Positions 22,264 through 55,078 of a stretch of 64,000 nt of DNA are shown here, in pieces. The DNA is taken from assembly GCF_014199445.1 (NCBI RefSeq), contig NZ_JACIJS010000009.1, positions 1 to 64,000 of the forward strand, in the 5' to 3' direction. Both the position numbers and the translations under genes were made by a program. Source of the stretch: Rubricella aquisinus. Its GTDB lineage: Bacteria; Pseudomonadota; Alphaproteobacteria; Rhodobacterales; Rhodobacteraceae. The notes below the pieces were generated by a model. That model made no database searches and was not told where the DNA came from. It saw nothing but the letters and a program-made list of their open reading frames with translations. The first letter of the stretch is position 1. The number at the start of each line of letters is the position of its first letter.

Positions 22264-22714
22264 AATGCGTATCCTTGTGTCAGGTTTTAACACGCTGCTA
22301 TTTGGACACGCGCGCTGGAATTTCAGCGTGGCAGGCTGACGCGCGGCGCGACCGCACAGGACAACTCGCCACAGGCCGCTCCCGCACGCTGTTCAGTCGC
22401 GATGCTCCTTCCAGCCCTTGGGCCGGGCCGGCGCTGCGCGCCGGTTTAAGATTGCGCTGAGGTGTTTGAGGAACAGGCCTGTTCCTCAAATCACCCGTTC
22501 AATTGTGCTGCTACGATTCGCCCGCGCGTCAAGGCCGCTCGTTCCTCGGACCTTGACCCACGGCCGAATCGCGGTGGCTGCTCTAGCTGCGCTCGTCCCA
22601 ATTCACTTTCTTCAAATATACCCCGCCGGAGGCACCGCCGCGCCGAAAGGCGCGGCGCCCGGCCAAACGGGAGGACGGAGCGTCAGCGACGGAACGACGG
22701 GCGGGAGCGCTTGC
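22264..22714. other. 451-base gap holding a complex repeat
   Basis: No gene supported. Contains the larger duplicated element (22453-22710) and a further 150 bases of GC-rich sequence without recognisable signals. Upstream promoter sequence of the small membrane gene must lie just right of 22263. Confidence 0.6.
22453..22710. repeat. Large intergenic repeat, copy 1
   Basis: From TGCGCTGAGGTG through a perfect 26-bp palindrome (22465-22490, half-site TTTGAGGAACAGG), a conserved block with CGTCAAGGCCGCTCGTTCC, the minus-oriented interspersed motif (22599-22633), and a hairpin CGCCGCGCC-GAAA-GGCGCGGCG (22637-22658). Bases 22453-22665 match 42676-42889. The last 45 bases (22666-22710) match 42596-42640 in inverted orientation with two differences. 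It ends 5 bases from the ABC ATPase stop. Confidence 0.85.
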
Positions 22715-29636: not shown

Positions 29637-29824
29637 CTGAAAATGTCCTTTGGTCAAACTGCGCTGAGTGTCCCCCCAACGGCGCGCCACTTCAACAGCA
29701 ACCTGCGCCTGGCGATTGGCCCGCCGCATCCGCGTATGCCGGGGGCGGGGGGCGGTTTTGGGGTGTGAGGCAGGCTGGGCGGCATCCCGCCGCTTGCATC
29801 CTGCGTCAAAAGCGTTAGCTTCAC

Positions 29825-29912
29825 GCCTGCCTCGGGGGGCCCAAATGGGCTGAGATGCGTGATGCAGACCCGTTGAACCTGAACCGGATTATGCCGGCGT
29901 AGGGAAGGCTGC
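29825..29912 (+). promoter_or_regulatory. TPP riboswitch (THI element)
   Basis: Conserved boxes in order: CGGGG, GGGCTGAGATG, ACCCGTTGAACCTGAACC, GGATTATGCCGGCGTAGGGA. P1 arms GCCT/AGGC flank. Placed about 55 bases before thiB, it senses thiamine pyrophosphate and should repress thiBPQ. Confidence 0.95.
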
Positions 29913-29936
29913 ATTCGCCCCGACATGCGTATGCCG

Positions 29937-42595: not shown

Positions 42596-42640
42596 GCGCT
42601 CCCGCCCGTCGTTCCGTCGCTTGCGCTCCGTCCTCCCGTT
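42596..42640 (-). repeat. 45-bp repeat, inverted relative to 22666-22710
   Basis: The reverse complement of this stretch matches 22666-22710 with two differences. In copy 1 it is joined to the end of the larger element; here it is separate and reversed, 36 bases before the 214-bp block. Confidence 0.75.
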
Positions 42641-42675: not shown

Positions 42676-42889
42676 TGCGCTGAGGTGTTTGAGGAACAGG
42701 TGTGTTCCTCAAATCACCCGTTCAATTTTGGGTGTCACGATTCGCCCGCGCGTCAAGGCCGCTCGTTCCTCGGACCTTGACCCACGGCCGAATCGCGGGG
42801 GCCGCTCTTACTTCACCAAGTCCAATTCACTTTCTTCAAATATACCCCGCCGGAGGCACCGCCGCGCCGCAAGGCGCGGCGCTCGGCCC
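42676..42889. repeat. Large intergenic repeat, copy 2
   Basis: Matches 22453-22665 over its length. The palindrome (42688-42713) has 11-bp arms TTTGAGGAACA/TGTTCCTCAAA with GGTG between. The terminal hairpin CGCCGCGCC-GCAA-GGCGCGGCG keeps a 9-bp stem and a GNRA loop (GAAA in copy 1). Contains a minus-oriented interspersed motif at 42821-42857. Confidence 0.85.
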
Positions 42890-42990
42890 AAAGGGAGCGG
42901 CCCGAAGGGCCAGCGACGTGCGGGAGCGCCGCGTTGTGCCGCGCGACTGCGGGGGATAGAGTGGAGCGCATATCAAAAGGAACACTCCCC

Positions 42991-55036: not shown

Positions 55037-55078
55037 GCGGAAGCCTCCGGCGGGGTATATTTGAAGAAAGTGAATTGG
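55037..55078 (+). repeat. Short interspersed motif, fullest copy
   Basis: GCGGAAGCCTCCGGCGGGG followed by TATATTTGAAGAAAGTGAATTGG. Its last bases abut the ATG of the hydrolase gene, so it supplies the ribosome-binding region (GAAGAAAGTGAATTGG); a TTG at 55061 inside it is an unlikely start. Confidence 0.7.

Follow-up and report, generated by a model that had tools for sequence, protein, structure and literature searches.

A non-coding DNA element built of two dissimilar hairpins is shared by many genera of a single alphaproteobacterial family, mostly in low copy number, and is amplified to 41 copies in the genome of Rubricella aquisinus. Its stems are maintained by compensatory changes and it is located on the leading strand at nearly all sites, whatever the direction of the neighbouring genes. 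Two of the 41 copies lie in the window, i.e. the whole stretch of 64,000 nucleotides analysed here (C9:1-64000 of the 3.24 Mb genome, which is divided into 23 contigs, here C1, C2 and so on). With belief and doubt nearly balanced, we suggest that it may be a small mobile or formerly mobile DNA element whose hairpins form on the lagging-strand template while this is single-stranded and which is moved in trans at the replication fork.

The element, its copies and its relatives

The repeat was recognised in an earlier note from the window alone, and this observation is confirmed. Positions 22453-22710 are matched again some 20 kb away at 42676-42929, with 87% identity over the full length and 90.6% over the first 221 bases of copy 1 (the note had claimed the duplication for 22453-22665). 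The palindrome at 22465-22490 is perfect over 26 bp in copy 1 and, as claimed, only nearly so in copy 2, where the central two bases break it. Both copies contain the 9-bp stem described at 22636-22644/22649-22657, with the loop GAAA in copy 1 and GCAA in copy 2, and the 45-bp end module 22666-22710 lies indeed inverted and separate at copy 2 (42640-42596 on the minus strand, 95.6% identity). The parts found in the window are the following.

22378..22452, + strand: left module of copy 1, with the inverted-end motif GCTCCCGCACG... and then a GC-rich hairpin directly before the core (from the sequence; a similar left module is present in nearly all copies printed)
22453..22572, + strand: conserved two-hairpin unit of copy 1, P1 plus P2 (covariance model R2, 104.9 bits)
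22461..22495, + strand: P1, the long palindromic hairpin GGTG-TTTGAGGAACAGG/CCTGTTCCTCAAA-T-CACC, in which a single base of the 3' side is bulged (inverted self-match 9-43; alignment)
22514..22571, + strand: P2, hairpin CGATTCG...GTCAAGG...CCTTGAC...CGAATCG (alignment)
22598..22633, + strand: tail motif of copy 1, CCAATTCACTTTCTTCAAATATACCCCGCCGGAGGC, containing TTCAC (in other copies TTCAC is the insertion point of IS200/IS605)
22636..22657, + strand: 3' hairpin of copy 1, 9-bp stem, loop GAAA (from the sequence)
22666..22710, + strand: end module of copy 1, ...GGGAGGACGGAGC...GCGGGAGCGC, inverted counterpart of the left ends (sequence comparison)
42596..42640, - strand: inverted end module on the left side of copy 2 (95.6% to 22666-22710)
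42676..42796, + strand: conserved two-hairpin unit of copy 2 (R2, 110.5 bits)
42797..42929, + strand: right part of copy 2, comprising the tail motif, a GCAA-looped hairpin and the end module (from the sequence)
55043..55078, - strand: stand-alone tail motif without core, on the strand opposite to both full copies (sequence match)

Independently of these parts, a TPP riboswitch above the gathering score is located at 29823-29922 (+) of the window.

The repeat is far beyond chance, with 93 matching places in the genome if inverted self-matches and module matches are counted. The genome-wide search that had been proposed as a check leads to 41 copies: covariance model R2 detected 40 of them (including one 90-base fragment at a contig end) and zero wrong-strand matches in 98 stretches comprising 1.60 Mb, and the 41st is C3:212771-212903. 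These stretches were partly picked around known copies and the other half of the genome may add a few, so that 41 is the count so far. Many contig ends fall in or near copies, which means that the assembly breaks there. The exact palindrome core is found 38 times in R. aquisinus and not once in the 393 other family genomes (one per genus).

The conserved unit is bounded by TGCGCTGAGG and CGAATCGC and is 120-122 bp long in 34 of the 36 aligned R. aquisinus copies, whereas L043 and L086 measure 133-134 bp. The palindrome hairpin P1 comprises 35 nt and has one extra base on its 3' side; L016 and L027 have gained an A opposite to this base, and L017 has lost the base. P2 has the closing stem CGATTCG/CGAATCG and the inner stem GTCAAGG/CCTTGAC, and in other genera its loop contains two additional small hairpins. 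Downstream of the unit most copies show the tail motif CCAATTCACTTTCTTCAAATATACCCCGCCGGAGGC, then a swappable GC-rich hairpin and finally the end module ...GCGGGAGCGC; upstream there is another hairpin and the inverted end module GCGCTCCCGC..., usually located a few bases past a stop codon. The right end is cut at differing points in several copies, L040 is without both end modules, and the stem of the 3' hairpin is swapped as a whole (GCGCC/GGCGC, CCCGC/GCGGG or GGTGC/GCACC). The shuffling of modules proposed from the window is thereby borne out: the hairpin modules attached to the unit are optional and exchangeable.

The tail motif CCAATTCACTTTCTTCAAATATACCCCGCCGGAGGC is found alone too and has relatives in other genera. 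In its stand-alone form (TTCTTCAAATA..CCCCGCCGGAGG) it is present at 55043-55078 (-), immediately upstream of a start codon, and at about ten other places of the R. aquisinus genome on either strand. It looks like a separate family-wide repeat, apparently without replication polarity, unlike the core.

In a set of 394 family genomes, one per genus and R. aquisinus included, covariance model R1 (made from R. aquisinus copies) detects the element in 39, again counting R. aquisinus, at E <= 0.01, and the broader model R2 in 57 at E <= 0.001; with 9 (R1) or 8 (R2) candidates scored per genome, these genome and copy counts are lower bounds. When 150 candidates were scored in each of three near-complete genomes, G199 had 6 copies, G244 had 4 (one additional weak antisense match left out) and G384 had 1. 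Among the named carriers within Rhodobacterales are plasmids of Leisingera aquaemixtae and megaplasmids of Tritonibacter mobilis. In most of the copies L155-L214 the 45 bases upstream of the unit are G-rich on the element's strand. An exact-letter scan of about 257 Gb for the palindrome core gave a single site in each of 18 contigs from unrelated organisms, plus one viral contig; chance matches are expected since the scan is of that size, and in the eight of these 19 contigs that were searched with R2 (L090-L092, L097, L098, L100, L107, L108) no match was obtained. An exact 45-mer search for relatives gave zero matches, and none was found either for the R. aquisinus unit in plasmid records or for the G199 unit in phage records. 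A literature search, with subscription journals mostly outside its coverage, revealed no paper describing the element.

Orientation of the element towards replication and genes

The replichores of R. aquisinus were set by mnmG/parB at C1:504-508 kb, by GC skew and by the switch of GGGCAGGG, the most strand-skewed octamer, which was found de novo and is by resemblance a candidate of the FtsK-orienting type (we take it to resemble the KOPS of Escherichia coli). This octamer is on the plus strand up to C2:170 kb and on the minus strand from C2:174 kb, with the reverse switch on C1. A dif-like 27-mer lies between C2:170 and 174 kb, the candidate at about C2:171.57 kb coming from a loose scan and being supported mainly by the octamer switch. 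On C2 the GC skew alone is weak and the arm assignment relies on the octamer. On C1 the two markers differ in their switch point (GC skew at about 510-525 kb versus octamer at 597 kb); this disagreement affects no polarity call because there is no copy between C1:462,552 and 663,546. A dense divergent GGGCAGGG cluster at C1:588-601 kb (L062) beside a ParB-like gene at C1:597759 may mark the origin, and a second dif-like site is found at C1:565 kb (L060), distant from the terminus.

Leading-strand orientation was assigned to 36 of 37 copies in the automatic table, to 39 of 40 if L025, L034 and L086 are added and to 40 of 41 with C3:212771, compared with 395 of 700 genes (56%). The probability of at least 39 leading copies in 40 by chance, at 0.564 per copy, is 3.6e-9. 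Arm signs and octamer were partly derived from the tested stretches, in which 700 flanking bases to the left and right of each copy were masked, and the octamer itself is concordant with the replication arms at 263 of 288 sites. Copy orientation is uniform along contigs with one exception on C6. This discordant copy, C6:26278, lies in a stretch with weak or negative GC skew, and an inversion around it is a possible cause. A replication origin on C6 had been considered from GC skew and was dropped, as the signal consists of one mis-oriented copy.

The same polarity is seen in the other genera, where 60 stretches covering most of the 73 R1 matches outside R. aquisinus gave 62 sense matches (two antisense matches were dropped). 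Fifty-eight of these 62 copies have a positive GC skew when read on their own strand, and around the 62 copies GGGCAGGG occurs 199 times on the same and 15 times on the opposite strand, with an own-strand majority at 56 copies, a tie at 4 and a minority at 2. L197 is discordant by both markers, and so is L203, a weak 63rd copy found with R2. Skew markers can be omitted completely: adjacent copies at most 500 kb apart on one contig have the same orientation in 29 of 30 pairs (positions collated by hand), the single odd pair flanking the expected terminus of G244. Positions of mnmG agree with the copies found in G244, G384 and G109 and with the first copy in G090. A symmetrical two-arm map drawn from mnmG accommodates no more than 2 of the 6 copies in G199, with local markers mostly concordant for the five copies that have stretches. 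The G199 copies (L164-L168, L215) alternate in strand along the chromosome; large inversions are possible.

Gene direction was considered as a cause of this polarity and rejected. With R. aquisinus genes taken from a simple codon-usage caller written for this analysis, the 31 copies with both neighbours called comprise 19 convergent, 9 co-directional and 3 divergent contexts, and among the 9 co-directional ones the element runs along the genes in 5 and against them in 4. In other genera (58 copies) the contexts are 23 convergent, 17 along, 17 against and 1 divergent, and in the 20-kb stretches 392 of 815 genes are on the element's strand. The orientation of the element tracks replication and not genes. 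The earlier note had singled out one strand as special: this asymmetry is real, whereas its meaning as an RNA is not supported, and replication, with 40 of 41 copies leading, explains it better.

Stem conservation and the question of DNA or RNA

Stem evolution was followed in a MAFFT alignment of 58 family copies that was not fitted to the structure (58 of the 66 copies of set A4, with some truncated or near-duplicate copies omitted). In this alignment 91.9% of the stem cells pair. Two-sided changes amount to 216 cells against 54.9 +/- 5.6 in shuffled alignments (0/500), and the covariation is 0.358 against 0.100 after shuffling (0/500) and 0.042-0.081 in slid controls. The covariation test proposed for the window thus reveals stems strongly conserved across the family; the R. 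aquisinus copies alone provide only 2 two-sided pairs. A protein-binding double-stranded palindrome, recognised by a single sequence-specific dimer, was also considered and is disfavoured, as the arm letters vary within one genome (e.g., G348) with pairing kept.

In RNA a G·U pair preserves a stem and an A·C pair breaks it. If the 21 positions with pairing in 90% or more of the copies are considered, the 1207 cells contain 11 G·T and 14 A·C; for all 30 paired positions the numbers are 19 G·T and 42 A·C among 1687. The control, 32 tRNAs from the same stretches, has 53 G·T and 0 A·C among 710 cells, although the tRNA finder may favour well-paired stems. The stems retain Watson-Crick pairs, as would be expected for DNA or from template switching. 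Judged from these alignments, the missing wobble excess argues for folding as DNA and not as RNA.

A small-RNA gene, or an RNA leader or terminator, transcribed co-directionally with replication is consequently improbable in our opinion. Covarying stems would suit it, as would the intergenic location, which in most cases follows the 3' end of a gene (in R. aquisinus 19 of the 31 contexts with two called neighbours are convergent), but neither the stems, in which, unlike in tRNAs, G·T is no commoner than A·C, nor the lack of orientation relative to genes fits. A search of Rfam 15 gave no match at the gathering score, the best sub-threshold hit being GlsR24 (E 0.0061, 20.2 of 100 bits). The loops speak against it as well. 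From the two window copies a GNRA rule on the plus strand and a plus-strand RNA had been proposed; a scan of 30 tail motifs (8 without a perfect hairpin by its criteria, and at least one R. aquisinus tail, L009, missed by the pattern) gave 22 perfect 5-4-5 hairpins with loops that are all GNNA, 10 of them GNRA and 12 GNYA (GTCA 7, GCAA 5, GCCA 4, GTAA 3, GAAA 1, GATA 1, GCGA 1). Loops of the form c(GNNA)g are stable in DNA. As a rule, the plus-strand GNRA RNA is rejected by the 12 GNYA loops and it is disfavoured by the wobble test, so that this reading of the repeat is unsupported.

Template switching in quasipalindromes would be a mutational and functionless way to maintain the stems, with polarity inherited from an ancestral dispersal. 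It can make and repair perfect stems in one step, according to the available text of one study (PMC8794818), and would explain the shortage of G·T as well. Against it, unpaired letters persist across genera, namely TGCTGAGA, the apex CAGGTCTG and TCAAGG/CCTTGACCC, together with the bulge, which needs a constraint beyond stem repair, and we consider this explanation quite improbable.

Dispersal, possible mechanism and relation to known systems

For none of 39 R. aquisinus copies do the two flanking genes recur together beside the element in another genus. Five sites, with 16 copies in all, hold the element at the same place and in the same orientation in two to five genera; examples are the gap that separates a CbiG-like gene from a tetrapyrrole methylase and the one that separates an aldehyde dehydrogenase from a GMC oxidoreductase. 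Copies of one genome are 75% identical, those at shared sites 63% and others compared between genera 57%. From the sequences this reads as dispersal within lineages with long retention, and the five shared sites suit long retention or function as well as mobility. A clean empty site was not found among the comparisons made, the Leisingera plasmids providing only a deletion remnant and replaced regions: in Leisingera caerulea (L220, L222) P1 was apparently lost by deletion between two short GC-rich hairpin repeats, and the P2 end remains.

A mobilising enzyme was identified neither in R. aquisinus nor, by neighbourhood, in other genera, where the flanking genes are metabolic and the 25 commonest of 139 families include no transposase or integrase. 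Pfam Y1_Tnp matches occur at three places in R. aquisinus, two of them within IS200-like copies inside the element and the third on C14. In the tail of five R. aquisinus copies an IS200/IS605 element is inserted at TTCAC with the polarity expected for that family. Landing at one TTCAC of the repeat is noted for the loci L034, L035, L036, L037, L039 and L044; in L036 the transposase frame is presumably shortened internally if compared to full-length relatives. By eye, and for the resident element only, its ends (LE TGTCC..., RE ...GTGGTTCAC) are unlike those of the unit. The REP hallmark GT[AG]G, expected 0-2 nt 5' of a hairpin foot (PMC6006769), is absent, the consensus before the P1 foot being TGCTGAGA.

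In the proposed mechanism the hairpins would act as single-stranded DNA, folding in vivo on the strand that carries them, which should be the lagging-strand template exposed behind each fork. An enzyme that cuts and joins hairpins at the fork could move the element in trans by peel-and-paste (HUH-type, IS200/IS605-like), and orientation would be fixed at insertion. Short GC-rich hairpin modules may later have been acquired, exchanged and lost again by the copies of R. aquisinus, some of which would have been invaded by the IS200/IS605 element. The orientation of IS200/IS605 elements recapitulates the direction of replication according to the available text of a review (PMC5371812), and HUH-type single-strand transposition onto the lagging-strand template is described there, and in the accessible part of a REPIN study, as fixing orientation (PMC5371812, PMC6006769). 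By this analogy, the likeliest origin of the polarity is insertion of the HUH type onto the lagging-strand template; its main rival is a function for the host exerted on the exposed strand. A further reading, rather unlikely as a whole, is a family-wide polar single-stranded "hairpin site" that would fold on the lagging-strand template, evolve by compensation at the DNA level, have its own putative recognition protein, be retained for long times at fixed sites and be able to expand in bursts to about forty copies.

In the rival just mentioned the element would be a functional polar site of the chromosome, the folded strand serving the host in priming or primosome loading, in fork or recombination control or in segregation, with mis-oriented copies removed by selection. 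The polarity of 40 of 41 copies at least equals that of GGGCAGGG (263/288) and extends to the old diverged copies L043 and L086, stem structure is preserved between genera, and the five common sites keep their orientation. However, only 57 of 394 family genomes (a lower bound) show the element, and G199, G244 and G384 hold 6, 4 and 1 copies, so that it is no general requirement; moreover, R. aquisinus copies are not at conserved sites. We regard such a function as unlikely, though as the strongest of the rivals. Least probable among the explanations considered appears a MITE of a DDE transposase, with the nested inverted ends GCGCTCCCGC...GCGGGAGCGC as termini and polarity caused by beta-clamp-guided targeting. 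Most R. aquisinus copies have inverted end modules, and replication-related orientation bias is reported for several IS families in the available text of the review (PMC5371812), but the ends are variable, the right one is missing in several copies and both are absent in L040, and in other genera the information content climbs steeply at TGC, where comparable ends do not adjoin the unit.

Strong covariation is commonly accepted as proving a structured RNA. In the present case DNA is indicated instead, by the wobble test together with the polarity towards replication, and the element could provide a well-sampled natural example of structural conservation in single-stranded DNA. Occurring tens of times in one genome and once in others, it may offer a clean system for distinguishing insertion from later selection as the source of polarity. 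Should there be a cognate enzyme, the features that it would recognise, namely the bulge, the apex loop and the TCAAGG/CCTTGA stem, have already been mapped.

Among known systems the REP/BIME/REPIN sequences with their TnpA-REP (RAYT) enzymes resemble the element as multicopy intergenic hairpins of species-specific sequence with mosaic modules and inverted pairs. According to the available texts of two papers, REP-type elements are believed to be mobilised in trans by a Y1 enzyme that acts on single strands (PMC6006769, PMC3116915). Unlike these, the element has 120-140 nt with two dissimilar hairpins, no GT[AG]G at the P1 foot in aligned copies, no RAYT gene identified beside it and a near-absolute replication polarity; on polarity the accessible part of the REPIN paper mentions only that tandem arrays are oriented oppositely on either side of the genome (PMC6006769). 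With IS200/IS605 it shares an orientation that tracks replication, these insertion sequences being transposed as single strands on the lagging-strand template (PMC5371812, available text). In contrast to them it has no tnpA, and its ends are unlike those of the resident IS200/IS605 element, which only lands in the repeat. Subterminal hairpins of IS200/IS605 carry bulges, similar to that of P1, and PATEs are non-autonomous derivatives of this family. Rhizobial RIME and other alphaproteobacterial intergenic mosaic elements are likewise palindromic, modular, intergenic and present in many copies, a likeness drawn by description only. KOPS and other replication-polarised oligomers show the same leading-strand polarity that switches at ori and ter; KOPS are 8-mers in hundreds of copies, whereas the element is a folded unit of 120-140 nt with 1-41 copies per genome. 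Sites of single-strand initiation or primosome assembly and single-strand origins of rolling-circle replication are hairpins recognised on the single-stranded lagging-strand template in one active orientation; the element differs from them in being chromosomal, repeated and patchy. What goes beyond the earlier note is this combination of replication polarity and covariation at the DNA level.
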